Below are positions 4,514 through 30,698 of a stretch of DNA of 64,000 bases, one piece after another. The notes under the pieces are model-generated. The model was not told where the DNA came from and did not search any database. It worked only from the letters and a program-made list of their open reading frames with translations. The translations under genes and the position numbers were made by a program. The DNA lies in NCBI GenBank assembly GCA_946491665.1, contig CAMLYL010000001.1, positions 1 to 64,000 of the forward strand, given 5' to 3'. The stretch comes from an uncultured Lachnospiraceae bacterium (GTDB taxonomy: Bacteria; Bacillota; Clostridia; Lachnospirales; Lachnospiraceae). Within the stretch, counting starts at the first letter, position 1, and the number at the start of each line of letters is the position of its first letter.

Positions 4514-5476
4514 TTATTCTGCTTTCCGTCTTCCGATCATATCTACAGCAACTACAATTACAAGAACCGCGCCGATGACAATCTTCTGCATGGAAGAGTT
4601 GACACCCATAATATTCAGTCCTGTACTGATGATACAGATTACAAAAGCTCCGACCACGGTCTTTACAATATTTCCTTCACCGCCGGAAAGGCTGGTGCCG
4701 CCGATGGCCGCTGCCGCAATTGCCAGAATATTGTACCCTCCGTCTGCCACATTCGGACTTCCTGTCATCAGTCTGGATGCAAGAACCATACCTGCGATAG
4801 CTGCTGCCAGTCCGTTCAGGGTAAAGATCAGGATATTATACTTATCTACGTTAACACCGGACAATCTGGCTGTTTTTTCATTACTTCCGATTGCATATGT
4901 ATAGCGTCCCATCTTGGTATTTTTCATAATATAGAGGCAGATCACAAAGAAGATCATTGCCACAATAAACTGAGATGGAATCAGTCCGATTTTCTGGGAT
5001 CCCCAGAATTCAAAAGGAACTCTCGCCCTCTCCGAATCTACAATAGCCACGGAAGTCTCATGTGTAATAACAAGCGCCACGCCGGCTGCTCCATACATCA
5101 TACCAGCCGTCATAATGAAAAACGGAACCCGCAGTTTCGCAATACAAAAGCCGTTCAGCAGGCCGCAGCCCACGCCTACCGCAATACCGATCACAGATGC
5201 CGGAACAGTCGTCATCCCCGCCTGTACACAGAGAGAAACAACACATCCGGATAATGCGGCTATAGCGCCGATAGACAGATCGATCTTACCGCTGATCATA
5301 ACAAAAGTCATACCGCAGCCGAACAGGATATACACGGCGGCAGTCCGAAGCAGGTTTGTAACATTTCCCAGTGAAAAGAATCCTTCTGACGTTATTGAGA
5401 AAAAGATAAACAGGGCCGCCAGTATAATATATACCCCATATTTATCGTATATTTTTTTACCAATTGAAACTTGCAT
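4514..5476 (-). CDS. Ribose-type sugar ABC transporter permease
   Basis: RbsC-like: GGEGNIVKTVVGAF, IGAIAALSG, multiple TM segments. Confidence 0.88.
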   Translation of the reverse strand: MQVSIGKKIYDKYGVYIILAALFIFFSITSEGFFSLGNVTNLLRTAAVYILFGCGMTFVMISGKIDLSIGAIAALSGCVVSLCVQAGMTTVPASVIGIAVGVGCGLLNGFCIAKLRVPFFIMTAGMMYGAAGVALVITHETSVAIVDSERARVPFEFWGSQKIGLIPSQFIVAMIFFVICLYIMKNTKMGRYTYAIGSNEKTARLSGVNVDKYNILIFTLNGLAAAIAGMVLASRLMTGSPNVADGGYNILAIAAAAIGGTSLSGGEGNIVKTVVGAFVICIISTGLNIMGVNSSMQKIVIGAVLVIVVAVDMIGRRKAE

Positions 5477-5487
5477 AACTAACCTCC

Positions 5488-7047
5488 TTAAATATCCAGC
5501 ATCAGCTTCAGCATTTTAGATTTCAGATTTTCTTCTGTATCATCAAACTCGCCGACTTTTCTGCCCTCACGCATCACCACAATGCGGTTGCAGAGTCCGA
5601 TCAGCTCATCCTCTTCCGAGGAGATTACAATTACACCGATTTTATTTTTTACCAGATCCTGGATAATTTTGTAAAAATCAGCTCTGGCTCCCACATCCAC
5701 GCCCCTGGTGGGTTCATCCAGAATCAGCAGATTCGGACTGGCCATCAGCCATTTCCCCAGACAGACCTTCTGCTGATTTCCTCCGCTGAGGTTTTCAATT
5801 TTCTGATTCCGTCCGGTAGTCTTGATTTTCAGATCATGAATCTGTTTTTCCACCTCCTGAATCTCCCGCTGTTTCTGAATATGAAAATTCTTTCCCAGCC
5901 AGTGCATATTTCCGATTCCCATATTTTCAAGAACCGACCGCACACCCAGAATTCCTTCATTCTTACGATCCTCGCTGACATAGCCAATTCCCTGCTTCAC
6001 TGCATCTACAGGACTCTTCACATGCAGCGTCTTTCCACGGTAAACAAATTCTCCGGAATCCAGATGATAGCATCCGAAAATCGTCTTGGCAATTTCCGTT
6101 CTTCCGGCTCCTGCCAGCCCTGCGAAGCCCAGGATCTCGCCCTCCCGCAGTTCAAAGCTCACATCCTCGTATTTTCCTTTGCAGGTCACATGCTTTGCCT
6201 CAAAAATCACATCTCCTGTCTCACGGTATTTATCCGGAAACTGATTTACATTATCCGAGCCGACAATTCCCGCCAGCAGGCGGTGATTATCTACATTCTC
6301 TATAAGATCTGTAAACACCAGCTTACCATCCCGCAACAGCGTAATCCGATCACAGATCTCATAGACCTCCGACATCCGATGGGTAATATAGATCATTCCC
6401 ACTCCCTTTTTCTTCAGCCGCCGTATCAGATCAAACAGCTGATCTGTTTCCTGCAGTGTAAGAGATGATGTAGGTTCGTCAAAGACCACCAGATCACTGT
6501 CCAGATTCAGAGCGCGGGTAATTTCAATCATCTGCTGTGTTGCTACAGACAGATTGCCCGCCCGCTCATCCAGATCCAAATCAATTCCCACTTCATCCAT
6601 TACTTCTTTTGCCCGTTTGCGCATGGCCTTCCAGTCATACACTCCATTGTGGGTAATCTCATTGGCGATAAATATATTTTCAAGCACGCTCAGATGCGGC
6701 AGAATATTCAACTCCTGAAACACCATGACAACACCATCCTGCTGGGCGTCATGCACACATGCCATAATTTTCGCCGGCTTCCCGTCATGCGAAATTTCAG
6801 CTCCCTCATCCGGCATATAAACGCCCGCAAGGATTTTCATCAGAGTGGATTTTCCGGCGCCGTTTGCCCCCATGAGAGCATGCGCTTCTCCGGCATATGC
6901 ATAGAAATTCACATCATCCAGAACTTTCGTGCCTGAAAAGGTCTTGGAGATATGTTCCATTCTCAATATTTCTTTTCCCATACCGACTGCCTTTCCCTTT
7001 CTCAAAACGTCTGCCCGGGAAATCCCGGGCAGGGTTTTATCACTCAC
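5488..7047 (-). CDS. Sugar ABC transporter ATP-binding protein (RbsA/MglA type, tandem ATPase domains)
   Basis: Walker A GANGAGKSTLMK, LSVATQQMIEI and LSGGNQQKVCLGKWL signatures. Confidence 0.93.
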   Translation of the reverse strand: MSDKTLPGISRADVLRKGKAVGMGKEILRMEHISKTFSGTKVLDDVNFYAYAGEAHALMGANGAGKSTLMKILAGVYMPDEGAEISHDGKPAKIMACVHDAQQDGVVMVFQELNILPHLSVLENIFIANEITHNGVYDWKAMRKRAKEVMDEVGIDLDLDERAGNLSVATQQMIEITRALNLDSDLVVFDEPTSSLTLQETDQLFDLIRRLKKKGVGMIYITHRMSEVYEICDRITLLRDGKLVFTDLIENVDNHRLLAGIVGSDNVNQFPDKYRETGDVIFEAKHVTCKGKYEDVSFELREGEILGFAGLAGAGRTEIAKTIFGCYHLDSGEFVYRGKTLHVKSPVDAVKQGIGYVSEDRKNEGILGVRSVLENMGIGNMHWLGKNFHIQKQREIQEVEKQIHDLKIKTTGRNQKIENLSGGNQQKVCLGKWLMASPNLLILDEPTRGVDVGARADFYKIIQDLVKNKIGVIVISSEEDELIGLCNRIVVMREGRKVGEFDDTEENLKSKMLKLMLDI

Positions 7048-7078
7048 TATTCAACTCTCATTTCACAGCGGAAGGATC

Positions 7079-8188
7079 CTATTCCAGTCCCTCTCCCATC
7101 TCAACAAAACTTCTCATATAATCAGATACTTCGTCAATAGAATTTCCCATACCCCAGTTGGATAATTCCTCGCCGTGAGGCAGATACTCTTCCACATTCT
7201 CTGCTGTGATAATGGTATCCGGAGTATATGTAAGTTCCGGAACTTCCTCGCCCTGAATCAGCGCGTAAGCCTGCTGTACTGCGTAATATCCCTGAAGGAT
7301 AGACCAGTCATAAGCTGTAGCGTAGATCTCGCCGTTGGCGATAGACTGTAATGCAATATAGTTACCGTCAATACCAGCTACCAGAACACCGTCCGCACCA
7401 ACTTCTATATCATTCTCTTTCAGTGCGCTGACTGCGCCTGCCGCCATCAGGTCATTGCAGCAGAGAACCGCATCCACATCCGGGTGAGCCTGAACAATAT
7501 CGGCCATGGTAGTAGCCGCCGTATCCTGATCATAGCTTGCACTCTGAGACTCTGCCAGTTCGATTCCATCATATTCTTCGATCGCTTTCTCAAAACCGGC
7601 TGTTCTTTCCTGGGAAGAGCTTGCCGCGTCCACACCGCGCAGAATCACGACCTGACCTTCACCGCCCAACTGATCAAATACATTCTTCGCCAGCTCATAA
7701 GCCATCTGTGTATGATCTACACCGATATAATTAGGCATATACTCGCTTACTTCATCGCCCCATACATTTGTAATTTCAGTATCAACAGTAACAAACGGGA
7801 TTCCTGCGTCATGAGCGGCATTTACCGCATTTGCCACACCGTCAGAATCATTCGCAGTCAGGATCAGCGCATCCACACCAGAGGAGATCATGTTCTCACA
7901 TTTTGTGATCTGTCCCTCTACATCAGACTCTGTTGCCGTATTGTCCACCTTGACCTCAACACCCAGATCTTTGCCGGCCAGAACAGCGCCATAAGCGATA
8001 TCCTGGAAATGTGCATTCGTAGCTGTTTTCACCACGATACCAATACTGATATCAGAATCAGATGCATTGTCAGCGGTTGAGCTTCCTCCTGTTCCGGATG
8101 TACCTCCTTCCTGACCGCATGCAGCCAATCCCATTACCATTGCTCCCGCCAGTACAACAGCCAATAATCTTGCTACTCTCTTCTTCAT
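7079..8188 (-). CDS. Periplasmic-binding-protein-like sugar-binding lipoprotein
   Basis: Lipobox LAACG after MKKRVARLLAVVLAGAMVMG; Peripla_BP_4-like fold motifs; RBS GGAGG. Confidence 0.9.
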   Translation of the reverse strand: MKKRVARLLAVVLAGAMVMGLAACGQEGGTSGTGGSSTADNASDSDISIGIVVKTATNAHFQDIAYGAVLAGKDLGVEVKVDNTATESDVEGQITKCENMISSGVDALILTANDSDGVANAVNAAHDAGIPFVTVDTEITNVWGDEVSEYMPNYIGVDHTQMAYELAKNVFDQLGGEGQVVILRGVDAASSSQERTAGFEKAIEEYDGIELAESQSASYDQDTAATTMADIVQAHPDVDAVLCCNDLMAAGAVSALKENDIEVGADGVLVAGIDGNYIALQSIANGEIYATAYDWSILQGYYAVQQAYALIQGEEVPELTYTPDTIITAENVEEYLPHGEELSNWGMGNSIDEVSDYMRSFVEMGEGLE

Positions 8189-8433
8189 ATTGAATTCCTC
8201 CTTAGACCATTCTCGTCTTGTCATTTTTGATAATACCAGTATACCAGCAGAAAATCCTTCCAGTAATTCATCTGAGGAATTCAATTATGTGCAAATGAAA
8301 TTATCGTATTCGTGCAAAATAAGCCGGGAATCCCTATACAAAACGTCCGGAATGCATCTGGAATACCAGTTAATATAAAACAAAAAGACCACAACCAAAC
8401 CGGCTGTGATCCTTTCACCGCTCATTTTCAACT

Positions 8434-9315
8434 TTACATAATTCTCTCGCCGAGACCGGTAGCATCATACGTTGATACCGCCTCTACTTCCCGTCGGAAT
8501 TCATCCGACTGAATCAGATAAATCAGCCGCTGAAACTCCGGCCGCTTCAGATCCTCTTCCCGGAAAATCATATCATAATCTTCCTGCTTCAAAGGAATAA
8601 AATCCAGTCCTTCCATCATTCGGCAGGTTTTTTCATTTCCGATAGCCACATCCGCAGCCCCCCGCAGAACTGCCGTGGCAGCCGAGTAATGAGATGAAAC
8701 CACATCATTATATCCATAAATCTCTCCATGGCCGATTCCCAGCTTCTTGCACATCTCGTCCACAAACACGCGGATACCGCTGCCCTTGTCACGGTTCACC
8801 ATGCGGATATTTTTTCTTGTCAGATCTTCAAAGGTTCTGATATTCTTGGGATTCCCCTTCTCTACATAGAACCCCTGCCACCGTTTCAGCAAATGATACA
8901 CTGCCAGCTTTTCTCCCGGAAGCATTCTGGTTACATAGGGCAGATTGTAGGTATCTGACTCAGAATCCCACAGATGGGCTGTCGCCACACAGTTATCATT
9001 CTGATACATCTCATACAGTCCCCGATAACTCCCCATAGGAGACCGGAACGCTTTCATACGGAAGCCTTCCTCATCGTTAAACAGCGCACAGAGAGCATCC
9101 AGGATCTGATCCTGACCGCAGATAATAATCTTGTCTGTATCATCATCCGAGATAGGCGTTCCCATAAAATCATATACTTCTGACTTCGAGATCCGGAACT
9201 GTTTTCCAAGCTTGGTCGCCCGCAGTTCTCCTCTTTTAATCATTTCGTACACAGTATTCTTCTTGATCTGCAAAAGATCCGCAACATCCTGAGGCGACAA
9301 AAACTTCTCTTCCAT
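8434..9315 (-). CDS. One-component regulator: excisionase-type HTH fused to a PBP-like ligand domain
   Basis: FLSPQDVADLLQIKKNTVYEMIKRGELRATKLGKQFRISKSEVYDF then a periplasmic-binding-like domain. Confidence 0.82.
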   Translation of the reverse strand: MEEKFLSPQDVADLLQIKKNTVYEMIKRGELRATKLGKQFRISKSEVYDFMGTPISDDDTDKIIICGQDQILDALCALFNDEEGFRMKAFRSPMGSYRGLYEMYQNDNCVATAHLWDSESDTYNLPYVTRMLPGEKLAVYHLLKRWQGFYVEKGNPKNIRTFEDLTRKNIRMVNRDKGSGIRVFVDEMCKKLGIGHGEIYGYNDVVSSHYSAATAVLRGAADVAIGNEKTCRMMEGLDFIPLKQEDYDMIFREEDLKRPEFQRLIYLIQSDEFRREVEAVSTYDATGLGERIM

Positions 9316-9392
9316 AAGCCCCTCCTTTCCAATCGTTTCTGCTGTCTTACAAAAGATGAGCTGCTTTCTATTCCGGTCTCTTCACTGTCTCC

Positions 9393-10070
9393 CTATGATT
9401 CACACATATCAATGGTCTTTCTGATCAGCGCTATGGTGCTCTCCACCGGATAACCGAACAGAAGTCCCACAGTCGCCAGCGCTTCCTGCCCCAGACAATC
9501 ATGAAGCTCAATGGAGCAGAGCTCTTCATTGCCGAACCAGGATAATTCCTGATCAAAATAAAACCTTATTGTCTCTGAATCCAGAGTAACCCCACTGGCC
9601 TCATAAACGCCGAGAAGGCGCTCCAGATCAAAATAATCTGACAGCTTTCCTTTCCTGCTGATATAAAGCATATAGCGATACTCTCTGGGATGATAGGGAT
9701 AGCAGTAATACTCCTCCCCTGTCTCCGCCAGAATAGTCATATAATCACTGGCCGATTCCGGATAAATCGTTGCCGCTATTTTTTTCCCATTCTGAACTGC
9801 ATAATTCATATAAGAAACTACCGGAATCGGACCGTAATTATTGCTGCAGCAGATCAGGTTATACCAGCTCAGATAAGGACTGTCATAACCTTCTGCACAG
9901 GCGGGAAAAAACAGCCGTTTACAGGTTACCTCCCGGGATCCCTGCTCCGGGAAACAGTAACGCAGAGACACAGTTACCTGTTCCCCCTCCTGGCTCCGAT
10001 ACAGAGAAAAAACAACCCTTTCTCCCACATCGTATCCCTGCTCAAACAGCTTCATCTCTTTTGTTTCCAT
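9393..10070 (-). CDS. Hypothetical protein (225 aa)
   Basis: ORF nested in a same-strand gene run; no family recognised. Confidence 0.6.
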   Translation of the reverse strand: METKEMKLFEQGYDVGERVVFSLYRSQEGEQVTVSLRYCFPEQGSREVTCKRLFFPACAEGYDSPYLSWYNLICCSNNYGPIPVVSYMNYAVQNGKKIAATIYPESASDYMTILAETGEEYYCYPYHPREYRYMLYISRKGKLSDYFDLERLLGVYEASGVTLDSETIRFYFDQELSWFGNEELCSIELHDCLGQEALATVGLLFGYPVESTIALIRKTIDMCES

Positions 10071-10756
10071 TATAAATTATACCTTCCGATCACCAATTTA
10101 TCAATATAATACTGTTTAATATACTGCTCATGCTCTTTCAGAGCCGTAATGCTGGCATCCACATCCCTTGCTTTAATTGCCTGGAAAATCTTTTCATGCT
10201 GTTCGTTGGTCTTCTCTCCATGCTCCAGATCATCAAAGGAAGTCACATCAAAACGCTGCTTCTGATTGACCAGCATTTCAAAAATCGTGTCCAGCCGCTT
10301 ATTATTGACATTATGTATAATAAAATTATGAAATTTAATATCCCACTCCATACGCTCCGGAAGCTGGCCCTCTACCGTACACTTTTTCGCCTGTTCCAGA
10401 ATCTGTTCCAGCTTGGCGTCCGCAATAATATTGTAATTTTTCATGGAAACCTGCAGGGCATAAATCTGAAGTACCTCCAGAAGATCATACACCTCCAGAA
10501 TATCCTCCAGTGTGTATACCGGAACAATAATCCCTTTCCCCGGCTCTCCTGATAAAAGTCCGTCTCTGACCAGCTGGCGCAGAGCATAGCGAACCGGAGA
10601 CCGGCTGACCTTATACTTTTCTGTCAGTTTCCGCTCTACCAGCACTGTCCCCGGTTCAAATTCATTATTCAAAATATCTTTCTTTATCTGTTCATAAACC
10701 ATGACCTCTTTGGTGGTCATTCCGAATGCATTTAAATTTGTCTCCTGCGTATACAT
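10070..10756 (-). CDS. GntR (FadR/FCD) family regulator
   Basis: Winged-helix EVMVYEQIKKDILNNEFEPGTVLVERKLTEKYKVSRSPVRYALRQLVRDGLL. Confidence 0.88.
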   Translation of the reverse strand: MYTQETNLNAFGMTTKEVMVYEQIKKDILNNEFEPGTVLVERKLTEKYKVSRSPVRYALRQLVRDGLLSGEPGKGIIVPVYTLEDILEVYDLLEVLQIYALQVSMKNYNIIADAKLEQILEQAKKCTVEGQLPERMEWDIKFHNFIIHNVNNKRLDTIFEMLVNQKQRFDVTSFDDLEHGEKTNEQHEKIFQAIKARDVDASITALKEHEQYIKQYYIDKLVIGRYNL

Positions 10757-10786
10757 GCCTTCCCTCACTTCTTAATTATCATTCAC

Positions 10787-11731
10787 CTAACTTCTGATCC
10801 TGTAGGCATTCAGCAGAGTTCCTTTTTTCAGAGGTCCCATCCCCGCCGGAATCACCACGCAGGCGTCCACATCCCGAGCATGCCGCAAATGATCTTCTGC
10901 GGCGCTGTCTCTTGGCAGCATTCTCACAATACCGTCGGCAAAAACAAGATGCCCCGGCAAAATCCTCGTCACTTCATTACATTCATCGAAATTCCGGCTC
11001 AGTTCTACCATAATCCGTTCATGAGCTTCTTCCTTCCGCCCAGCAATTTTCTTCAGAACCGGAAGAACAATCAGATAAAACGCCGTCAGAAGCTCCTCTG
11101 AGGTGCCCGCAATTCCGAACACCGGCACATGCTCCATAAATCCTGTGCAGACAGTCGCCCCCGGCTGTATATCAATATGATCGGCCACGATTTCAGCTCC
11201 GGTCTTCTCCAGCATATCCTGTACCCGCGCAAAGTCGTCCGGTTCCGAGCCTCCGCAGACAAACACCGCGTCATAAACGGCAGATGCCATTCTGACTGTA
11301 GAAACCGTCTGCGCCCGCTCCTGCGGAATACAGCCCTGATAGATGGTGGAAAACCCGAATTCTCTTAACGCATTTCCAAGAATATACCGATTTGACTTTT
11401 TCTGTATACCGCTGCCGGAAGGCTCTTCCCCCTCCAGATAATAAAACCCGATCAGCGGCTTGCGATACACCTCCACCTGATGAATCCCCAGGCCGATCAG
11501 CGTCCCATGCAGAGCAGGTCCGATCATGCAGCCCTGTTTTGCAACAATTCTGTCTGTACCGGGGCACGCCTGTCCCGCGTTCTGATCCTGCGCTGCGTCC
11601 GCCTCTGTAATATCCTGAGCCAGAATTCTTCCTGCAGCATTGGCTACCGCCAGCTGTTCCGTATCAAGAGCCGTGCACCGCTCCAATATCATTTCTTCGG
11701 CAAAAACCAAATCATACATTCCTGTTTTCAT
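10787..11731 (-). CDS. Divergent MoeA/MogA-like molybdopterin-binding domain protein
   Basis: N-term LEERCTALDTEQLAVANAAGRILAQDITEAD resembles MoeA; degenerate VFVCGGSEPDD in place of the GGxSxG loop. Confidence 0.7.
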   Translation of the reverse strand: MKTGMYDLVFAEEMILERCTALDTEQLAVANAAGRILAQDITEADAAQDQNAGQACPGTDRIVAKQGCMIGPALHGTLIGLGIHQVEVYRKPLIGFYYLEGEEPSGSGIQKKSNRYILGNALREFGFSTIYQGCIPQERAQTVSTVRMASAVYDAVFVCGGSEPDDFARVQDMLEKTGAEIVADHIDIQPGATVCTGFMEHVPVFGIAGTSEELLTAFYLIVLPVLKKIAGRKEEAHERIMVELSRNFDECNEVTRILPGHLVFADGIVRMLPRDSAAEDHLRHARDVDACVVIPAGMGPLKKGTLLNAYRIRS

Positions 11732-11738
11732 GAGATCG

Positions 11739-12305
11739 TTATTCTCCTATCGCTAATTTACGTCCAACCTCATAAGCCTCACGTTTCAGATCCATATTCT
11801 TATCGGCTGTCTCCGGATTATTTGCTTCCGGACATACGATACGATGGATCTCCTCCAGACCGAAGCTGGCGTAATTCATTCCAGCAACAAACTCCAGATA
11901 ATCTTTGTTCATATCCGCGTCCGGCATTCCCTGGGTATAAACCGTTACAAGCTTTTTCATGCCATATCTGGGACGTCCTTCCTCTCCCATCAGCGGGAAA
12001 AAGCGGTCGTACAGGTTTTTCGTCATACCGTTGATCTGGCAGAAATAGATAGGAGATCCCACCACAATCACATCTGCCTCTTTCACTTCTTCTATAGCCT
12101 TTGTCAGCTCATCGCTGATGCTGCATTTTCCGTTATTTGCCTGACATCCGAAACAGCCCATGCAGGCAGACATTTTCATTTTAAACAGATAATAACTCTT
12201 CACATCCGCATGATGCTCTTTTGCTCCCCGTTCAATCATCTGAAGAATTGTCGCAGTGTTTCCGTCATAGCGGGGGCTTCCATTAAAAATAACTATTTTT
12301 TTCAT
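11739..12305 (-). CDS. NAD(P)H-dependent FMN reductase / flavodoxin-fold oxidoreductase
   Basis: IVIFNGSPRYDGNTATIL, CxxCxxC-like MGCFGCQANNGKCSI, VVGSPIYF. Confidence 0.85.
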   Translation of the reverse strand: MKKIVIFNGSPRYDGNTATILQMIERGAKEHHADVKSYYLFKMKMSACMGCFGCQANNGKCSISDELTKAIEEVKEADVIVVGSPIYFCQINGMTKNLYDRFFPLMGEEGRPRYGMKKLVTVYTQGMPDADMNKDYLEFVAGMNYASFGLEEIHRIVCPEANNPETADKNMDLKREAYEVGRKLAIGE

Positions 12306-12523: not shown

Positions 12524-13348
12524 TTAGTTCATCTCGATATAGTCCAGATTCAGAGACTTGCCGGCAATCTCGATCTCGAGATCTTTTGTTTTTCCGGCTG
12601 CCTCGATGCTGATTGTGTATTTACCATCATCCAGACCATCAAACTTATAATCGCCGAAGAAATTCGTCTTCTGAACTTCTACAAGCTCTCCGTCTTTCTT
12701 AAGCTCTACAGTTGCATCCTCATAGCAGTCGCCGTCAACTAAAATACCGCCTGCTGCAAAGTTCTTTGTGAATCTGTACAGATTCTTATAGAACACATGA
12801 GGATTGGTACCAAGCTCCGGTCTGTAAACCTCCAGACCTTCTGTCTTGATCATAACTTCCATCTCTTCCGGCTCCATATGGTAAGCCTTTAAAGCCTTTG
12901 TGGGGCAGGAATGAGCACATCTCGGAATACCGGGAACCCAGTCAGGATCATCCAGCAGGTGTGCACACATAGTACATTTCTGCGGTTCGCAGGCTTCCTC
13001 GTTGTAATATACTGCTCCATAAGGACACATAGCTACTGCATCCTCTTTTCCCTTTGCAGCTGCCATATCGATCAGCACAATACCGTCTTCTCTTCTTGTA
13101 GCATATCCGGCATCAACAAGAGGACAGTTCTCACAATGCTGACAAGGCATAGGCAGATAAGAATAATCATTTCTGGCATATCTGCCGCGCTCTCTTCTCT
13201 GGATATTCATCCAGCGATGTCCATGGCGGGGCTGGGCGTTTGTATAGCCCGGCCACTCATTATCTACATGCTCATCTTTACATGACATAAAGCAGTTATT
13301 GCAGTCATGACACCATCTGACATCTATAACTAAATACCACTGTTTCAT
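12524..13348 (-). CDS. Pyrogallol-phloroglucinol transhydroxylase small (FeS) subunit with C-terminal Cna-B/transthyretin-like domain
   Basis: Multiple 4Fe-4S Cys motifs plus C-terminal YKFDGLDDGKYTISIEAAGKTKDLEIEIAGKS; adjacent to large subunit. Confidence 0.88.
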   Translation of the reverse strand: MKQWYLVIDVRWCHDCNNCFMSCKDEHVDNEWPGYTNAQPRHGHRWMNIQRRERGRYARNDYSYLPMPCQHCENCPLVDAGYATRREDGIVLIDMAAAKGKEDAVAMCPYGAVYYNEEACEPQKCTMCAHLLDDPDWVPGIPRCAHSCPTKALKAYHMEPEEMEVMIKTEGLEVYRPELGTNPHVFYKNLYRFTKNFAAGGILVDGDCYEDATVELKKDGELVEVQKTNFFGDYKFDGLDDGKYTISIEAAGKTKDLEIEIAGKSLNLDYIEMN

Positions 13349-13381
13349 TTCGATATCTCCTTTCTGACAACATCTGCGGAA

Positions 13382-15982
13382 TTAATAAATTTCGTAGATA
13401 CCGCCGTCCCATTTTTCTACTTCAATCTGAGCACTGTTGGGTGCCATACCGCATGCATACTTGGACATGTAACGATCCGGTGTAAGGATATTTACACAAC
13501 CGCCGCGGTCTGCGGAGTTACCCGGTTTTCCAAGAGGTGCGTACTCTGCACAGGACTCATAAGAATGAACCGTACCAGGCTGTACACGCTCACCAACCTG
13601 TGCGCAGAGGATTACGGAACCTCTGTCGTTGTAAGCACGAACCAGATCGCCGTCTTTGATTCCACGAGCCTCTGCATCAACGGTATTCATACGGATAATC
13701 CAGTAATACCATCCGTCTACCAGTACACGGTGATCCTTGATATCCATCATGAAGGAATCCTTTGCATCACCCATGGTATGCATGGAGAATCTGGGATGAG
13801 GAGAAAGCATACCCAGAGGGTATTTCTTTGCAACCTCAGCATGCCAGCTCTCCCAGGCCGGAACATACTTATGCATTGCAGGACGATACTCATCAACGAA
13901 GCCCTGCTCCTCAAAACGTTTCAGGGACGTGGAGATAAACTCAATCTTACCTGTGGTTGTCTGCAGACCCTTCAGACCTACTGTCTGGTTCGGAGCCGGA
14001 CCCCAGTCAGGTGTATCACGCTCACGATCCTCAGCGAACCAGCGAAGCGCAACTGTTTTCTTTCTGTTCGGATTATCCGGAACTACCAGGTAGCCCTTCT
14101 TGAAGAAGTCTTCCCAGCTCATCAGCTTCGGACAATCTGTTGCGTTATAATACTGTTCTACCCATTTCAGCTCATCCTTACCCTCAGTAAAGATATCGTA
14201 AATGCCAAGCTTCTCGGAAAGATAAGCATAAATCTCATAATCAGATTTAGACTCGCCAAGAGGCTCAATACATTTTGCCTGCAGGGAGATTACACGGTTG
14301 TTTGCCATCTGGAAGTTATCCGGAATATAACCGGAGCAGTTTGCAAACTCGGAGATATCCCATCTCTCGTAGTTGGTACATGCCGGAAGGATGATATCAG
14401 CAAACGGAACCTCGCCCTCCATCCAGATAGACTGGGAAATTACGCACTCCAGAGACTCTGTACGGTACATCTTTGCATATCTGTTGGTAGCAGTCATGGT
14501 ACCGATATGAGATCCGCCGTAATGCCAGTACATCTTAATGCTGCCGTAACCGGGAGCCGGATACTGATAGGGATGCATCTGAGTTTCAATTGTAGCTCCG
14601 CAGAATCCCTTGCCGTACCACTCGAACTTGCCGTTCATAATACACTCCGGAATCTTCAGACGGGGAATATGCTGACCTGCTTCCCAGTTCAGTTTTACAG
14701 GAGCCGGGAATGTAGTCTTGCCGTCGAACATTCTCCATGCAAACTTGAAGCCTGCTGCGGAGTTCGCTGTATCACCGGAGATACCGCCCTCTGCATAACC
14801 AGGGAAGTAGAACTCGTAGTCAGTGGGAACACCCTGAGTAGTTGACCAGATATTGGAACCGGGTTTACCCATTCCCTGCATGGTTGCAAGAGCGATCATA
14901 CCACGTGTCCACTCAATACCATGAGTTGCACGGCAGGCGCCGCCCCAGCCGCCCATACCGCCGGCTGCAAGGTATGTATTCTTCTTTGCCCACTCACGAG
15001 CCAGTGCACGAATCTCACATGCGGGAACGCCGGATTCTTTCTCTGCCCACTCACAGGTCTTCGGAATACCGTCCTCGCCGTTGCCAAGCACGTACTCTGC
15101 CCACTCTTCAAATCCATAAGCATGAGTCTTTACATATTCTTTATCGTAAGTTCCCTCTGTCAGCCATGTATATGCGATAGCGAAAGAAATCGCATGGTCT
15201 GTACCAACCTTGGGTGAGAACCATTTAATTCCCCACATATTTGCGGAATGGTTGAAGAAGGGATCGATGAATACCATCTTTACTCCCAGCTCATCCAGCC
15301 AGCGACGTCTGATATGGGACTCGTATGCAGCATAGATACCGCTGTTTACTTCCGGGTCAGAGGACCAGAATACGATCATCTCTGCATATTTCAGACCATC
15401 CTCTAACAGGTCATACTGCTCCGGACAGCCAAGTCTCCAGGAGAATCCCCACATATGCATACCGCCCCAGTGCCATCCTTCCCAGGAATCCGGGTTGTGA
15501 TCTGCATAAGTGAATCCCATCAGGTTCATAAAACGGAAGTATGTAGAATGACGATATCCTACATTACCCCATAAGTGGTGAGATGAAGGTGTGGACATGA
15601 TAGATGCCGGACCGCTCTCTCTCTTAATTCTGTTTACTTCGCTGACAACAAGATCTCTTGCCTCTTCCCAGCTGATTCTCTCATAGCCTGAAGTTCCCCG
15701 GTTCTGAACATTTCTCTCACCATTGGGATCCCAGTCTACACGTTTCATCGGGTAGAGGATACGACGATCAGAATAAATCATAGACTTCTGACCGGCAGTA
15801 AACGGTGCAATAGTCGTATATCTCGGTGCCTTGAATTCTCTGCCTCTAGCCTTAATTGTCCAGCCTTCCGGATCTGTCTCATCAAAATCCATCGGTGTAA
15901 TACGAACAATTTTGCCATCCTTTACATACACAAACACAGGACCGCCGGTGCTGGAATTAGTCAAACGAATTTCGCCTTCCAT
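13382..15982 (-). CDS. Pyrogallol-phloroglucinol transhydroxylase large (bis-MGD) subunit
   Basis: 866 aa from MEGEIRL (RBS GGAGG); SSHHLWGN and NPDSWEGW match the His and Asp-Ser-Trp active-site region recalled for Pelobacter acidigallici transhydroxylase. Confidence 0.88.
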   Translation of the reverse strand: MEGEIRLTNSSTGGPVFVYVKDGKIVRITPMDFDETDPEGWTIKARGREFKAPRYTTIAPFTAGQKSMIYSDRRILYPMKRVDWDPNGERNVQNRGTSGYERISWEEARDLVVSEVNRIKRESGPASIMSTPSSHHLWGNVGYRHSTYFRFMNLMGFTYADHNPDSWEGWHWGGMHMWGFSWRLGCPEQYDLLEDGLKYAEMIVFWSSDPEVNSGIYAAYESHIRRRWLDELGVKMVFIDPFFNHSANMWGIKWFSPKVGTDHAISFAIAYTWLTEGTYDKEYVKTHAYGFEEWAEYVLGNGEDGIPKTCEWAEKESGVPACEIRALAREWAKKNTYLAAGGMGGWGGACRATHGIEWTRGMIALATMQGMGKPGSNIWSTTQGVPTDYEFYFPGYAEGGISGDTANSAAGFKFAWRMFDGKTTFPAPVKLNWEAGQHIPRLKIPECIMNGKFEWYGKGFCGATIETQMHPYQYPAPGYGSIKMYWHYGGSHIGTMTATNRYAKMYRTESLECVISQSIWMEGEVPFADIILPACTNYERWDISEFANCSGYIPDNFQMANNRVISLQAKCIEPLGESKSDYEIYAYLSEKLGIYDIFTEGKDELKWVEQYYNATDCPKLMSWEDFFKKGYLVVPDNPNRKKTVALRWFAEDRERDTPDWGPAPNQTVGLKGLQTTTGKIEFISTSLKRFEEQGFVDEYRPAMHKYVPAWESWHAEVAKKYPLGMLSPHPRFSMHTMGDAKDSFMMDIKDHRVLVDGWYYWIIRMNTVDAEARGIKDGDLVRAYNDRGSVILCAQVGERVQPGTVHSYESCAEYAPLGKPGNSADRGGCVNILTPDRYMSKYACGMAPNSAQIEVEKWDGGIYEIY

Positions 15983-16139
15983 GTGATAAACCTCCTTAAT
16001 TAATAAATTGTAATCAACTTTTCGCTCCATGGTTTTCATACGGGATGCGGTCGTGAGTAGAGGATGGTTGCTCCCACACCCATATGAAAACCATGAACAT
16101 CCTGAGAGGGAAACATCTCATTTCCCTTTCTGTGACTGC

Positions 16140-16305: not shown

Positions 16306-17223
16306 TCAGATGTCTTTCTTATCATGAAGATTGGAATATTTCTGCGCGTAGGAAAACAGTTCATTCAGAATCGGAGTCCTGTTCTTCTCCTTCCTGGTAA
16401 GCTGCATGGGGAGATATTTCTGAGGAACATCCTCCTCTATGGGAATAAATCTCAGATTCATATTGGAGATCACCTCCGCCTCCTCAAATACCAGGGCAAC
16501 TCCCTCTCCCATCTCCAGCAGATAAAGCAGCTCGTCAAAATCCTCAATCTGAGCTGTAATCCGGGGATAGAAGCCAAATACGCCGCAGACCTTGATCAGA
16601 TAATCATCCTCCGGCTTCAGTTCCATGGGAAGATACCGAAGAAAAGAACTGTCCTTGAAATCCGCCAGCGTCACATTCTTTTTAAAGAAAAGCGGATGCT
16701 TTTTATGCACGGCAATCCCCACACGGGAATAAAACAACGTCAGCTTCTCCACACCACGGACCATCTTCACATCATGATCCGCGATCAGAATCACATCATA
16801 ATAATCATTCAGAAGGCCCTCCACAATCTTCTTCTGAGAGGCCCGCTCCTTGATAATCTGAATCTCCGGATGCTCCTCCCGGAATCCAAAAAGCACCTGA
16901 GAGAGATAGCTGTTGGCTTTTATATGATTCTGACATCCGATGGTGATGGTTCCCGAATACTTCCGCACGGAATTTTTCGCCCGTGTCATCACCATATTCC
17001 AGTTGGAAAGCATCTCTTCCAGCGTCTCTGCCAGCATCTGGCCCTGCACAGTCAGCTTTACCCCCTTTGTATTACGGTCAAACAAAACCAGATCCCACTC
17101 CTCTTCCAGAGATGAGATCTGACGGCTGATATTCGACTGGGAAATAAACAAATGTTTTGCTGCTTTTGTGAAACTCAGGCATTTTGCCACCTCCAGAAAA
17201 CAGCGGACCTGCAAATCATTCAT
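16306..17223 (-). CDS. LysR family transcriptional regulator
   Basis: MNDLQVRCFLEVAKCLSFTKAAKHLFISQSNISRQISSLEEE. Confidence 0.92.
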   Translation of the reverse strand: MNDLQVRCFLEVAKCLSFTKAAKHLFISQSNISRQISSLEEEWDLVLFDRNTKGVKLTVQGQMLAETLEEMLSNWNMVMTRAKNSVRKYSGTITIGCQNHIKANSYLSQVLFGFREEHPEIQIIKERASQKKIVEGLLNDYYDVILIADHDVKMVRGVEKLTLFYSRVGIAVHKKHPLFFKKNVTLADFKDSSFLRYLPMELKPEDDYLIKVCGVFGFYPRITAQIEDFDELLYLLEMGEGVALVFEEAEVISNMNLRFIPIEEDVPQKYLPMQLTRKEKNRTPILNELFSYAQKYSNLHDKKDI

Positions 17224-17463
17224 ATAAGTTTCCCCTTTCATCCCTTCTGTTTTATTATCAGAAAATCTTATCTGTCCATATCTCATTCTTATTATAAGGA
17301 CAAAAATATTTCTGTCAAGAACTTGCCCAAAATCACAAACCAAAAACATACTGTCAGCACGTTTTTGTCATGCCATTGGTATACCATTTTCTATATTATA
17401 CAGCATATTGCACAATTTTTTCAACTCAAAATCATATTTTTTTGAAATTTCTTTGATTTTTCC

Positions 17464-17542: not shown

Positions 17543-19120
17543 ATGGCTCTATTGATTGCTGTTGTATACTTCGTCGCTCTGATTATCGTAGCGAGTATGT
17601 ATGCAAAAAAGAAAACGAAATCTGCAGAAGATTTCGCAAACGCAGGCGGCGGAATGGGCTGGATCATGGTTACCTTCACATTCGTGCTCGCGCCTCTTGG
17701 ATCCGGTCACACCATGTCCCTGTGGCAGAAAGCAGCCGGCGGCGGGTTTACAGACTGGGCAAACTTCACCGGTATCGGTGCAGGCGCCATGTGGTGGGCC
17801 ATCGGCGCAGGCGCTGTATTTCTTCCGATCGCAATGCTCTGGATCGGACCGATCTACAAAAAAATGAGAGCAACCACTGTTCCGGAAGCCATCGAAAGAG
17901 TTTACGGCAAAAAGCTTGCATGGTTCCATGCCGGCTTCCAGACCATGACATGGACCGGTATCGGATGCTCCGAAACCGTTGCCATCGGCGCCGCAATTTA
18001 TACTCTGTGCAAGGCAAGCGGTATCGACTTAAGCATCTACGCATCCATCATTATCGGTTTCGTACTGGTTGTCTGCTACGTATTCTTCGGCGGAATGCTT
18101 CAGATGGCATGGCTGAACGTAATCAACGCAATTGTTATGATCATCGCTTCCTACAGCGCGATCGCCATCATTGCAGTAAACTATCTGGCACAGTTCGGCG
18201 GCTGGAAGGGTGTTCAGGCAGTCTATGAACAGATGGGCTATTCCAACATTCTGACACAGGTCAGCACGCTGACACAGATGCCCGTATGGCTCAGCGTTAT
18301 TATCCCGGTTATCGTACTGCATACTACAGCCGGCGCCGTATCCCAGACCATGATGCAGCCCTTCTTCGCTGCAAAGGATACCAGCGCCTGCCGTAAAGGT
18401 GTATTTATCGGCTGTTCCTTCAATATTATGTCATCCCTTCCCTGGATCTTCCTGGGTATGGCGGCTATGGCAATCCCCGCAATCGCATCTACGGTAAGCC
18501 CCAACGGTCTGGAGGCTGTTCCGAATATCGCAGCCGCAGGTCTTCCTGTTCCGGCCATCGGACTTCTGATGATTGCTCTGCTGGCGGCAACTCTGTCCAC
18601 GGGCGGCGGAATTGTTCTGGCAAACGCCAACGTTATCTCTCATGACATCTTCTACAAATGTGTGAAGCCCGATATGGATGACCACGGTCGTCTTGTGGCA
18701 ACAAAAGTCTGCATTATCATCGCAGCGCTGCTGCTGCTGCCCGGCGCTTTACTGATGGCTCATGAATTTGTATTTAACCTGTTCCTATGGGTATTCTCCT
18801 TTGGTATGCCTGTGTTCATTGTCTTTATCATAGGATACAACTTCAAGGTCAGCAAATCTGCGGCCTGGATCACCATTATCGTATCCTATGTAGTTGACTG
18901 TATCTGGACCTTCCTGCCGATGGAGAAAATTCTTCATCTGCCCGCCGGAAGTATCTGGGGCATGAACCTGTACGCAACCATGGTTGTTTCTCTTGTACTT
19001 GGTATCGTTCTGCACCTTGTTCTTCCCGGAACACAGGGCTGGAAAAAAACCAAAGCAGCACAGAAACTGGCCGCTGAGCAGGACGAAATTGATCGCGCCG
19101 ACGCTCAGGCACAGGCTTAG
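17543..19120 (+). CDS. Sodium:solute symporter (SSS) family transporter
   Basis: 525 aa, ~13 hydrophobic segments; VTFTFVLAPLGSGHTMSLWQKA...ATTVPEAIERVYGKKLAWFH. Confidence 0.88.
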   Translation: MALLIAVVYFVALIIVASMYAKKKTKSAEDFANAGGGMGWIMVTFTFVLAPLGSGHTMSLWQKAAGGGFTDWANFTGIGAGAMWWAIGAGAVFLPIAMLWIGPIYKKMRATTVPEAIERVYGKKLAWFHAGFQTMTWTGIGCSETVAIGAAIYTLCKASGIDLSIYASIIIGFVLVVCYVFFGGMLQMAWLNVINAIVMIIASYSAIAIIAVNYLAQFGGWKGVQAVYEQMGYSNILTQVSTLTQMPVWLSVIIPVIVLHTTAGAVSQTMMQPFFAAKDTSACRKGVFIGCSFNIMSSLPWIFLGMAAMAIPAIASTVSPNGLEAVPNIAAAGLPVPAIGLLMIALLAATLSTGGGIVLANANVISHDIFYKCVKPDMDDHGRLVATKVCIIIAALLLLPGALLMAHEFVFNLFLWVFSFGMPVFIVFIIGYNFKVSKSAAWITIIVSYVVDCIWTFLPMEKILHLPAGSIWGMNLYATMVVSLVLGIVLHLVLPGTQGWKKTKAAQKLAAEQDEIDRADAQAQA

Positions 19121-19534: not shown

Positions 19535-19969
19535 TCATTCCTCCAGAGTAATTGAATCCCCCACATGAATAATCCCCCCATGAAGCACTCTGGTAAACAC
19601 ACCCTCTCTGGGCATAATACAATCCCCAACTGCCTTGTGGATTTCACAGTGACTGTGACATTTCTTTCCGATCTGAGTCAGCTCCAGCACAACTTCATCC
19701 CCAATCATAAACTTTGTTCCGAGAGGAAGCGCTTTCAGCTGATAGCCCTCTACCACAATATTCTCACCAAAAGCTCCAAAATCCACATCCGCACCCCGGG
19801 AACGAAAATTCTCTATTTCGGAATAGTCCAGAAGACTTACCTGGCGATGCCAGTCTCCCGCATGGGCATCGCCCTCAATGCCCCAGTTTTCTTTCAGTGT
19901 CACCGCCGGAACCTCATGCTTCTGGATCCCCCTGATCTTGCTGATACATATTCCCTTTACCTGTCCCAT
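19535..19969 (-). CDS. MOSC domain protein
   Basis: WGIEGDAHAG, FGENIVVEG, C(H)SHCEIHKAVGDCIMPREGVFTRVLHGG. Confidence 0.88.
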   Translation of the reverse strand: MGQVKGICISKIRGIQKHEVPAVTLKENWGIEGDAHAGDWHRQVSLLDYSEIENFRSRGADVDFGAFGENIVVEGYQLKALPLGTKFMIGDEVVLELTQIGKKCHSHCEIHKAVGDCIMPREGVFTRVLHGGIIHVGDSITLEE

Positions 19970-20008
19970 ATTCCGTCACTCCTTCTTTCTGTGATACATC
20001 ATCTCCGG

Positions 20009-21010
20009 TCATCCGCCAATGGAAACCATCCTGTGTTCTTCGGAAACATTTTTCAGTGTATCAAAACAATGTGCCGCCGGTTTTGCGAAGATTGCCCTTT
20101 CCATCATTTCCCGGATCTCCTGATCTGTTCCGCCGCTTCGGAGAGCCTGCTGCAAATCATAGGTTTCCGCATAACACAGACAGGGCTTTATCTTTCCTGT
20201 TGCGCTGAGGCGGATTCGATTGCAGTTATGGCAGAACTTCCCGTGCATGGCAAGAATCAGACCCACGCTTCCGGCAAATCCCGGAATCTGATAATATACC
20301 GCGGGACCGCTGCCGTGAACTGCAGGATCATTCTGCAGTCCGGGAAACATTCTCTGCAGCGAAGAAAGAACCTCTTCACCGGTCACATGGTAATACTGTT
20401 TGCCCTCGCCGATAGGCATCAGTTCAATAAACCGCAGATCTACCGGGAGCTTCTCCGCCAGGGAAAGCATCTCCCGCCAGTCCACCACGCAGTCTTCAAA
20501 AAAATCACGGGGCAGCAAAACCGTATTCACTTTTACCTTCAGTCCCGCATCCAGAGCCGCCCGGATATTGTCCATTACTTTCGGAAGCGCATCGAATCTG
20601 GTAATTTTCTGAAAGAGTTCCCTGTTCAGAGTATCCAGACTGATATTCACTCCGTCAAGTCCGCTGTCTGTCAGCTCCGGCAGATATTTGTCCAGCAAAA
20701 TACCGTTGGTCGTCATTGTGACGCTCTCAATCCCCGGAATACGGCGGATCATAGCCACCAGCTTCGGGATATCTGCCCTGACCAGCGGTTCCCCTCCGGT
20801 CAGACGTATCTTTCTGATTCCCAGATCCACTCCAATCCGACAGACTCTGGCAATCTCCTCATAAGTCAGAAGCTCCGGCATGGGAATTGTCTGAATCCCC
20901 TCCTCCGGCATACAGTATCTGCAGCGAAGATTGCAGCGGTCTGTAACCGATATTCTCATGTAGTCTATTTCACGATCAAAACTGTCTCTCATATATATCT
21001 CTTTTCCCAA
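20009..21010 (-). CDS. moaA: GTP 3',8-cyclase MoaA
   Basis: Radical SAM CNLRCRYCMPEEG, LTGGEPLVR, C-terminal GG. Confidence 0.95.
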   Translation of the reverse strand: MGKEIYMRDSFDREIDYMRISVTDRCNLRCRYCMPEEGIQTIPMPELLTYEEIARVCRIGVDLGIRKIRLTGGEPLVRADIPKLVAMIRRIPGIESVTMTTNGILLDKYLPELTDSGLDGVNISLDTLNRELFQKITRFDALPKVMDNIRAALDAGLKVKVNTVLLPRDFFEDCVVDWREMLSLAEKLPVDLRFIELMPIGEGKQYYHVTGEEVLSSLQRMFPGLQNDPAVHGSGPAVYYQIPGFAGSVGLILAMHGKFCHNCNRIRLSATGKIKPCLCYAETYDLQQALRSGGTDQEIREMMERAIFAKPAAHCFDTLKNVSEEHRMVSIGG

Positions 21011-21019
21011 TGTATTTTT

Positions 21020-22219
21020 TCAGAGACGGTACACCTGAACCGTCTCGCCGGCCATAGCTCCGGCCATATCCGGTCTGATCTCAACCAGACAGTTGCATTC
21101 CACCATGGAAGCAATTGCTCCCGATGACTGCATCTTTCCGTTTATATAAACCTTTCCGTTTTCCAGGCAGCCTCTCAAAAACCTCCTGGCTCCCGCCGGT
21201 TTCCTGAAGTCATTCTGCAGAACCGCATTTTCCATGGGAAGCAGCCAGTCCTTCTGTCCCGTCAGTGCAGCAAGTACAGGACGCGCCAGAAGTTCAAAGT
21301 TCGCAATGGCGCCAAAAGGATTTCCCGACAAACATAAAACCAGCGTTCCTTCACAGACGAAGGCCAGGGTAGGAGATCCCGGCTTGATCCGTACTTTCCA
21401 GAACAACTGTTCCGCATCCAGAAGCTTCACTACATCATGCAGAATATCCTTTTCTCCCACAGAAACTCCTCCTGTGGTAATCACAAAATCCGCCTGCTGC
21501 GCGGCCTTCCGAATTTCATCTGCCACTTTACGGGCCTCGTCAGCTGCATGCATGGAAATTACGGGAGGATTTCCCGCCTCCGTCAGCCGGGCACAGATAT
21601 AGGCGCGGTTAGAATCATAGATCTTTCCCGGGCTCCAGGGCTGTCCGGGCACAAGCACCTCATCACCGGTGGAAATTACAGCAACCGAGGGCTTTCTGTA
21701 CACAACGGCCTCTGTCTTTCCCAGAGAAGACAACACCGTAATCTTTCCGGCATCCAGCCGGCTGTCCTTCGGCAGCAGAACTGTTCCCGCCTTATAATCC
21801 TCTCCCTGAAAACAGTAATTCTGATAGGGCTCTGAGGAAACATATATCTGTACTGTGTCATTCTCTGCAAAGGTGTCTTCCTGCCGGATAATCGCATCTG
21901 CTCCCTCTGGAATCGGAGCGCCCGTCATCAGCCTTACCGCCTGTCCTTCACCCACAATGCCATCGAACACATAACCTGCATAAATCCTTCCAATCACATG
22001 CAGAACCGCAGGATTTTCCTTCGACGCACCGGCCACATCCGCCGCGCGCACCGCATAACCGTCCAACGGGGATCGGGGGAACGGCGGCTGATCCCTCTCT
22101 GCTGTCACATCCTCCGCCAGTACTCTGCCAAGGGCGTCTGCCAGCGGAACCCGTTCCGTCTGTTCAATCTTCCGGACCTGTTCTGTCAGCATCGCCTGTG
22201 CTTCTTCAATCTGTAACAT
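21020..22219 (-). CDS. moeA: Molybdopterin molybdenumtransferase MoeA
   Basis: PLDGYAVRAADV, VISTGDEV, TTGGVSVGEKD, CLSGNPFGA. Confidence 0.94.
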   Translation of the reverse strand: MLQIEEAQAMLTEQVRKIEQTERVPLADALGRVLAEDVTAERDQPPFPRSPLDGYAVRAADVAGASKENPAVLHVIGRIYAGYVFDGIVGEGQAVRLMTGAPIPEGADAIIRQEDTFAENDTVQIYVSSEPYQNYCFQGEDYKAGTVLLPKDSRLDAGKITVLSSLGKTEAVVYRKPSVAVISTGDEVLVPGQPWSPGKIYDSNRAYICARLTEAGNPPVISMHAADEARKVADEIRKAAQQADFVITTGGVSVGEKDILHDVVKLLDAEQLFWKVRIKPGSPTLAFVCEGTLVLCLSGNPFGAIANFELLARPVLAALTGQKDWLLPMENAVLQNDFRKPAGARRFLRGCLENGKVYINGKMQSSGAIASMVECNCLVEIRPDMAGAMAGETVQVYRL

Positions 22220-22490
22220 GATAACTCCCCTTTCTGTCATTAAAACTTATTATACTTGTCACGCTCTGTTTTTTCCATCCATCTTTTCCTTCATATTATT
22301 CCGTTTGCGCATAAGCACAGGAATCATTCATCTGCCGGATACAGTTATGCCAATATAAGATAATGATTTTTCATTTTATGATAACATTTCTTTTCACATT
22401 CTGCTATACTGGGATACAGCGGTTCACAAAAAACAGCTTTCGTTTTTATGACCCTGATACTCACATTTTATATACAAGGAGTTTTTCACT

Positions 22491-24548: not shown

Positions 24549-25340
24549 TCAGTCAAACATATCCTTCGCCTGAGAGTAGTTAAATACCGGTCCCTCCAGG
24601 CACACATATGTATCATTGATTCTGCAGTGGCCGCACTTTCCGACGCCGCAGCACATTTTCCGCTCAAAGGATACCCAGATCTTATCCTCTGTGGCTCCGT
24701 TTTTCAGACATTCCATCGCCGCAAAATGCATCATTACCGGCGGCCCCACGATAACAATATTATAATCGTCAAAATCCCGGATGGGCACTTTTCCGATATG
24801 AGCGGTAACCATTCCGGTCTCAAAACCTTCCCGCTCCTCATTGTCCAGCGTCGTAATTACATGAAACCGCTGAGCAAACTTCTTCGCCTCATCGCGGAAC
24901 AGCACCGCGTCGTAATTCTTAAAACCGGAAATGAGATACAGGGATCTGCATACCTCCGGATGATCATAGAAATGATTGATCATCGTCATAACCGGCGCCA
25001 TACCGGTACCGCCGCAGATAATCAGAAGATCCTTGTTCTCAAACTGCTTCACCGGGAATGAATTGCCGTAGGGTCCCCGCAGGAATATAGAGTTTCCCGG
25101 CTCCAGATCGAAAATCGCCTGGGTCAGCAGTCCCACATTCCGGATCGTGAATTCCACATATCCGGGCCCTTTTCCACTGGCAGAAATCGGCGCTTCACCG
25201 ACTTTGGGCAGAGACAGCATGAAAAACTGTCCATATGCCGGATCATTTTCACAGGCCACGCGGAAGGTACATTCGGTGGCTGTATGCTTTAACATACTTA
25301 AAATCCTGTGTGGTTTGGGAACTAATACATTATTTTCCAT
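24549..25340 (-). CDS. AsrB-like FAD/NAD(P)H ferredoxin reductase subunit
   Basis: LRGPYGNSFPV, ICGGTGMAPV, C-terminal MCCGVGKCGHCRINDTYVCLEGPVF (2Fe-2S type). Confidence 0.9.
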   Translation of the reverse strand: MENNVLVPKPHRILSMLKHTATECTFRVACENDPAYGQFFMLSLPKVGEAPISASGKGPGYVEFTIRNVGLLTQAIFDLEPGNSIFLRGPYGNSFPVKQFENKDLLIICGGTGMAPVMTMINHFYDHPEVCRSLYLISGFKNYDAVLFRDEAKKFAQRFHVITTLDNEEREGFETGMVTAHIGKVPIRDFDDYNIVIVGPPVMMHFAAMECLKNGATEDKIWVSFERKMCCGVGKCGHCRINDTYVCLEGPVFNYSQAKDMFD

Positions 25341-25349
25341 AGCTTCCTC

Positions 25350-27086: not shown

Positions 27087-27708
27087 AGTATCTGCCTCCC
27101 CGTCCAAAAGAAACCTCATCCAGTTCCGGCGGAAGAATATCCTGCCACTGGGCGTTTTTCAGTATATACCGGGTAGAAGGACCGTTTCCGAAATCTCTCA
27201 GACGGTATACATTTTCCTCTCCCGCTTCCCGAAGCAGTCTGGAAACCTCGCTGCCCGGATCGTTGATATCTCCATAATGAAGCGCTTTTCCGGAACAGTT
27301 TTTCACGCAGGCCGGATCCTCGCCCTCCTCACGGAGCTGAGCGCAGATGGTGCATTTGTCCATGGCCCGCTGCGTCTCGCTGAATGTGTTGGCATGGTAG
27401 GGACATTCTTTATTGCAGCTGTGGCAGCCGATACATTTCTTCGTCTCAATACGGACCACACCGTCTTCTTTGCTTTTATATACGGCTCCGGAAGGGCAGA
27501 CCCGTACGCAGACCGGATTCTCACACTGCTGACACATCGTAGGAAGAAAATACATCTGCAGATCCGGATAGGTTCCGAAAGGTCCAACCGCACGTACTTT
27601 CGTCCGGTCAGATCCCAGAGTCGTTCCGTTTTCCATTTTGCAGGCCACCTGACATCCCTTGCATCCGATGCAGCGGTCCAGCTCTATTACAAATGCGTAC
27701 TGTTTCAT
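27073..27708 (-). CDS. DmsB/NrfC-like four-cluster ferredoxin subunit
   Basis: MKQYAFVIELDRCIGCKGCQVACKME...CQQCENPVCVRVCPSGA...CIGCHSCNKECPYHA...CTICAQLREEGEDPACVKNC. Confidence 0.93.
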   Translation of the reverse strand: MKQYAFVIELDRCIGCKGCQVACKMENGTTLGSDRTKVRAVGPFGTYPDLQMYFLPTMCQQCENPVCVRVCPSGAVYKSKEDGVVRIETKKCIGCHSCNKECPYHANTFSETQRAMDKCTICAQLREEGEDPACVKNCSGKALHYGDINDPGSEVSRLLREAGEENVYRLRDFGNGPSTRYILKNAQWQDILPPELDEVSFGRGGRYYEHI

Positions 27709-30383: not shown

Positions 30384-30632
30384 ATTATCCCTCCACAGCC
30401 TTTGTTTCATGGTATACATCGATGAACATTTTTGGTATACCACTTGTATCTGACTTTGATTATATGCCTGCATATGCAAATAGTCAAGACATTTTCAATT
30501 TCTTTTTTACACTATCTTTTTTATTTTTCTTTGTCTAAACTGCTCATAAAACAAAAAAGTCAAGTATAATCTTTTTCTTTTGTTTATAAAATATAAACAA
30601 AAAAAATATTAAAAAATTGTGAAAAAATACAT

Positions 30633-30662: not shown

Positions 30663-30698
30663 CTAAAGCTATAAATTTTTATGAAGGAGGGAAAGGAT

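Follow-up and report, generated by a model that had tools for sequence, protein, structure and literature searches.

The window, a 64,000 nt stretch of contig CAMLYL010000001.1 from an uncultured Lachnospiraceae bacterium (assembly GCA_946491665.1), carries at positions 12524-15982 a pair of genes that very probably encode a pyrogallol-phloroglucinol transhydroxylase (Ath1), the middle step of a route leading from gallate to pyrogallol, phloroglucinol and short-chain acids. The assignment is based on homology, conservation of the pocket, tree position, the other pathway genes and co-occurrence, and from these we infer the Ath1 reaction itself and gallate as the substrate of UbiD. The enzyme is of a known type, found in a lineage (Eubacterium oxidoreducens and its kin) where it is expected; E. 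oxidoreducens is a known degrader of gallate and pyrogallol, and its lineage is known for the breakdown of gallate and phloroglucinol.

Subunits and active site

The large (molybdopterin) subunit is specified by athL (13382-15982, minus strand). Its reading frame (13382-16039) has two possible ATG starts, the longer version, from 16039, being 885 aa. A strong Shine-Dalgarno sequence (AAGGAGG) precedes the ATG at 15982, and residue 1 of the corresponding 866 aa protein is where the alignments of its relatives begin, so this start is taken as correct, in agreement with the length given in an earlier, sequence-only reading of the region. The small Fe-S subunit (274 aa) is encoded by athS (12524-13348, minus strand), which has the Shine-Dalgarno sequence AAAGGAGATA. 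Scans for promoters and terminators gave results close to the shuffled expectation.

Both proteins match the crystallised transhydroxylase of Pelobacter acidigallici (AthLS; PDB 4v4c, 4v4d and 4v4e) over their full length, and neither similarity is due to chance. The large subunit scores 1625 bits against 4v4c_A over 862 residues, with 78% identity (861 aligned residues), and the second-best solved structure is a DMSO reductase at 236 bits. It contains the transhydroxylase-specific first domain (Pfam AhtL-like_1st, 100.7 bits, cut-off 27), and there is no match to the Fe4S4 domain (Pfam Molybdop_Fe4S4), which is found in both of the other molybdoenzymes of the window; absence of this domain is a transhydroxylase-like trait, and the Pelobacter large subunit also lacks it. 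The small subunit matches 4v4c_B from end to end (355 bits), and 12 of its 13 ferredoxin cysteines are in register with those of Pelobacter; the C-terminal beta-type domain is present too, as the earlier reading had proposed. A subunit of this kind adjoins the large-subunit gene, as the family requires. Differences from the Pelobacter system are the Lachnospiraceae host, the thirteenth cysteine, which is displaced by two residues (CX2CX2C compared to CX2CX4C in Pelobacter), and an 8-residue insertion near residue 100 of the Pelobacter large subunit that is absent from the window protein.

The pocket was compared in an alignment of the Pelobacter sequence, rebuilt from a printed alignment, with 53 further sequences from the family and from outgroups. 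We take the active-site positions of the Pelobacter enzyme to be His144, Tyr152, Arg153, Asp174, Ser175 (Mo ligand), Trp176, Trp354, Tyr404, Phe468, Cys557 and Tyr560. All 11 are identical in the window protein (His135, Tyr143, Arg144, Asp165, Ser166, Trp167, Trp346, Tyr396, Phe460, Cys549 and Tyr552), and they are constant across the whole Ath1 clade with a single exception (R153C). A loss of such residues, which the earlier reading had named as evidence against itself, is thus not seen. The two motifs it had pointed to, SSHHLWGN (His135/136) and NPDSWEGW (Asp165-Ser166-Trp167), are present and align with Pelobacter residues 144/145 and 174-176, and the constant numbering offset of nine that had been assumed applies at these positions but not to the later part of the protein, where it is eight (Trp346 corresponds to Trp354, and Tyr396 to Tyr404). 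In the proposed mechanism, Ser166 would hold the molybdenum of the bis-MGD cofactor and His135, Asp165 and Tyr396 would hold the aromatic ring, while a hydroxyl would be moved from the cosubstrate, 1,2,3,5-tetrahydroxybenzene, to pyrogallol, yielding phloroglucinol and regenerating the cosubstrate.

Family placement and alternative identities

In a tree computed by maximum likelihood from 48 large subunits, a set without the resorcinol hydroxylase RhL, the window protein falls in one clade of 21 rows (support 100/100) together with those of Pelobacter, Eubacterium oxidoreducens (89% identical to the window protein) and Parasporobacterium, and this clade also takes in members from Acidobacteriota, Actinomycetota and Desulfobacterota. 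Its sister clade (100/100) is formed by a second paralogue group, represented only by Bacillota in the tree's sample, and takes in the copy on contig C110 of this genome, described below. TorA is a far outgroup, and long-branch warnings concern distant rows only. The relatives are Lachnospiraceae, several of them from rumen or gut metagenomes, supporting the gut Clostridia origin suggested earlier; no 16S gene was found in the draft genome (84% complete, 171 contigs).

The reading as a true transhydroxylase is therefore upheld by the 78% identity, the shared clade with the Pelobacter enzyme and the intact pocket. Grouping with formate dehydrogenase or other DMSOR clades had been put forward as a finding that would count against it, and the tree places the protein elsewhere. 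Membership of the formate dehydrogenases or TMAO/DMSO reductases was rejected on the position of TorA and on the NCBIfam scores, every match of the large subunit being far under cut-off (e.g. bisC_fam, 332 compared to 1018; Fdh-alpha, 113 compared to 666). That the large subunit might be a catechol dehydroxylase, or some other reductase of the DMSO reductase type, is scarcely credible. The enzymes do belong to a common superfamily, and the same organism carries an acetylene-hydratase-like molybdoenzyme (27705-30479); moreover, the catechol dehydroxylases of Eggerthella and Gordonibacter are likewise bis-MGD proteins that act on aromatic hydroxyls. However, these form a clade of their own with acetylene hydratase as nearest kin (PMC7028382), whereas the window protein scores just 44 bits against acetylene hydratase (2e7z) and 60 bits against FdhH, compared to 1625 for the Pelobacter enzyme, lacks the Fe4S4 domain, and has a different place in the tree. 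Since catechol dehydroxylases sit on this separate branch, the hedge of the sequence-only reading, that the enzyme could be a catechol-type hydroxyl-transfer enzyme, is unnecessary.

A closer rival is a relative within the family whose main phenol is another one, such as a resorcinol or 3,5-dihydroxybenzoate hydroxylase or a hydroxyhydroquinone transhydroxylase. Resorcinol hydroxylase (RhL; PMC10100899), the closest of the named relatives, is a family member, and a further paralogue, 63% identical, is encoded in the genome, so members of the family may well differ in specificity. We nonetheless regard such an identity as quite improbable, given that the window protein belongs to the Pelobacter enzyme's own clade with an unchanged pocket, while clades at 38-58% identity have altered pocket residues (e.g. 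R153 to W, Y or K, and W354 to F), and that its gene partners are those for gallate and phloroglucinol.

Pathway genes and gene neighborhood

A candidate gallate decarboxylase is encoded in the window by a UbiD-type hydroxybenzoate decarboxylase gene (30681-32168, plus strand), the product of which scores 647 bits against 3,4-dihydroxybenzoate decarboxylase (PDB 5o3n) and 448 bits against NCBIfam VdcC, under the cut-off of 650. It is followed by a DASS/CitMHS-type transporter (Pfam; 32212-33651, plus strand) and by UbiX (33813-34370, minus strand; Pfam Flavoprotein, and 240 bits against the NCBIfam UbiX family, cut-off 109), the flavin prenyltransferase predicted to supply the UbiD cofactor. 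The route would begin with uptake of gallate and its decarboxylation by UbiD/UbiX to pyrogallol, the substrate of Ath1. UbiD genes also lie beside ath in loci L016, L027, L028 and L033, and phloroglucinol genes are found nearby in L030, L041 and L042.

The steps after Ath1 would be carried out by phloroglucinol reductase, dihydrophloroglucinol cyclohydrolase (DPGC), a triacetate-forming dehydrogenase and triacetate lyase. The genes PGR, TfD, DPGC and TAL are side by side on contig C62, which, like contig C110 described below, is joined to the window by binning only. The C62 PGR is a short-chain reductase with PDB 5g4k as its top solved relative (444 bits), which we take to be the phloroglucinol reductase of Clostridium sp. 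ATCC BAA-442, and it is followed by a 3-hydroxyacyl-CoA-dehydrogenase-like gene, a cyclase-family gene and a BKACE-family gene. The same set, also adjacent, degrades phloroglucinol to short-chain acids in Clostridium scatologenes (PMC10470551), a strain studied with phloroglucinol and flavonoid genes; in the window genome, by comparison, the cluster would be fed via the transhydroxylase and UbiD. DPGC is present in 22 of 397 Lachnospiraceae genomes, comprising all six with Ath1, from six genera, and 16 of the 391 others (Fisher P ~1e-8, shared ancestry ignored). It also occurs in 17 members of a 20-genome Ath1 set that spans several phyla and overlaps the Lachnospiraceae sample. This co-occurrence, together with the neighboring pathway genes, supports the pyrogallol to phloroglucinol step independently of the enzyme sequence.

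The window has a further gene of the DAPG-hydrolase family (49670-50485, minus strand), which was considered for the ring-opening step and rejected, as its family is that of phloretin hydrolase and ring opening is performed by a cyclase-family protein (PMC10470551), found on C62. Its phloretin-hydrolase-like product (106 bits to PDB 5xe5) possibly provides a second route to phloroglucinol, from flavonoids.

Upstream of athL are a LysR regulator gene (16306-17349, minus strand; Pfam, synteny), the true start of which may be further in, and an SSF-family symporter gene (Pfam SSF; 17543-19120, plus strand), which is close to athL in Lachnospiraceae, Holophagaceae and Flavonifractor and likely specifies the substrate importer. 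Beyond these lie molybdenum-cofactor genes for MOSC, MoaA and MoeA (19535-22240, minus strand), the first two identified by Pfam and MoeA (21020-22240) recognised by sequence similarity when synteny was compared. Further away, a minus-strand segment at 24549-30479, adjoining UbiD, encodes the acetylene-hydratase-like molybdoenzyme followed by an Fe-S protein, a TorD-AsrA fusion and AsrB, apparently an anaerobic-sulfite-reductase electron module serving a molybdoenzyme.

On the other side, all on the minus strand, are genes for a MoeA/MoCF-domain protein (10787-11731; Pfam MoCF_biosynth), which is part of the conserved gene order in several Lachnospiraceae, a GntR/FCD regulator (10070-10768; Pfam), conserved downstream, a 225 aa protein with no Pfam match (9393-10070), kept beside ath in many Lachnospiraceae, and a sugar-type ABC importer (binding protein, ATPase and permease; Pfam; 4514-8284), found after ath in other organisms too, E. 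oxidoreducens among them. Between the last two is a gene (8434-9315, minus strand) for an excisionase-type helix-turn-helix fused to a periplasmic-binding-protein-like domain, which occurs near ath in L023, L024 and L036 as well and may be a regulator sensing molybdate/tungstate or another ligand. The arrangement closely resembles that of E. oxidoreducens DSM 3217, source of the 89% identical large subunit, where ath is followed by the flavoprotein gene described below, GntR, the ORF with no Pfam match and the ABC importer, and where the second paralogue and DPGC are present; it differs in that the MoeA-like gene is apart from the flavoprotein gene and LysR/SSF are inverted.

Flavoprotein and second transhydroxylase pair

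Directly 3' of athS is a gene (11739-12305, minus strand) for a 188 aa flavodoxin-fold protein of the FMN_red family (Pfam, 64 bits) carrying the motif CX2CX2CX6C. A motif of the form CX2CX2CX5-6C is common to most of 22 flavoprotein rows, except that Cys2 is missing from one and the final spacer is longer in three; compact spacing of this kind (CX2CX2CX4-7C) is presumably the motif of the iron-sulfur flavoprotein (Isf) family. A structural model based on 15 sequences (pLDDT 79, with low quality in the cysteine loop) resembles reductases of the flavodoxin fold, flavone reductase and quinone reductases included. The protein thus combines a predicted flavodoxin fold with a compact cluster motif, as in Isf, and is predicted to bind FMN and a 4Fe-4S cluster.

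Orthologues lie directly downstream of athS in 20 of 24 Ath1-clade loci, with gaps of 19-319 bp, in Bacillota (Lachnospiraceae, Oscillospiraceae and others), Acidobacteriota, Actinomycetota and Desulfobacterota. In L021, L022 (= G230) and L023 the orthologue is present on another contig or 6.6 kb away. Among 358 Lachnospiraceae genomes, an orthologue (E <= 1e-40) was found in all six with Ath1 and in none of the 352 others. The pattern suggests a dedicated redox helper or partner of Ath1, which would prevent the loss of tetrahydroxybenzene in quinone form, or reduce or prime the metal centres of AthLS. No link between such a flavoprotein and a transhydroxylase was found in the open-licence literature, and its association with Ath1 seems to be undescribed. 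It might instead be a general flavodoxin-like reductase that is carried along and unrelated to Ath1, FMN_red proteins being very common and the gene being missing from the fragmented Ath1 genome of L035 (G807) and from the distant or partial actinobacterial L039, L040 and L042. Its exclusive occurrence in the Ath1 genomes of the Lachnospiraceae sample, even where it is not adjacent, and its position next to athS in four phyla make this unlikely. In L035, athL itself (7225-9825) is split by an in-frame stop into two ORFs that share 94-96% identity with the window protein; the split and the missing flavoprotein gene could reflect either assembly error or decay.

A second pair of large and small subunit genes is found on contig C110 (L013; 5428-8229 and 4623-5435, minus strand). 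Its large subunit is 63% identical to that of the window, is extended by about 65 aa at its C-terminus, and differs at one of the eleven pocket positions (Cys557 to Asn). A paralogue of this type (63-65%) is present in five of six Ath1 genomes in the Lachnospiraceae sample and in none of the 391 others, and in the set of 20 Ath1 genomes, a close copy (83-91%) occurs in ten and one or more further family members occur in 18. The two pairs are in tandem in L021, L022 and L023, while in L095 the second pair is beside UbiD, UbiX and a transporter. Two operons have likewise been recorded for two Chloroflexi genomes (PMC3971608), and co-occurrence of the second pair with Ath1, a comparative-genomic observation, seems undescribed. 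Sequential transhydroxylations from hydroxyhydroquinone to phloroglucinol are described for Pelobacter massiliensis, according to a title cited in PMC8084988, and for this reason a role of the second pair in such reactions is a reasonable guess, and no more. The Actinomycetota genomes behind L029 and L041 (2.5-2.8 Mb) have 12 and 11 matches to large subunits of the transhydroxylase family, some of them contig-end fragments, an apparent expansion for phenol chemistry.

Tentatively, and with somewhat less than even confidence, we propose that the Ath1 system has more than two parts: a dedicated Fe-S flavoprotein, which would keep the cosubstrate reduced or pass electrons to the small-subunit clusters, and the C110 pair, which would perform a different hydroxyl transfer, for example forming the cosubstrate from hydroxyhydroquinone. 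The flavoprotein and the C110-type pair are relevant to two aspects of the enzyme, the purpose of several Fe-S clusters in a reaction without net electron transfer and the source of the tetrahydroxybenzene cosubstrate. The athL and flavoprotein genes may serve as markers for gallate fermenters in metagenomes. Pyrogallol derives from tannins, and the finding links an odd chemistry, molybdenum-based hydroxyl transfer from one phenol to another, to a gut bacterium that has almost all the genes for converting tannins to short-chain acids.
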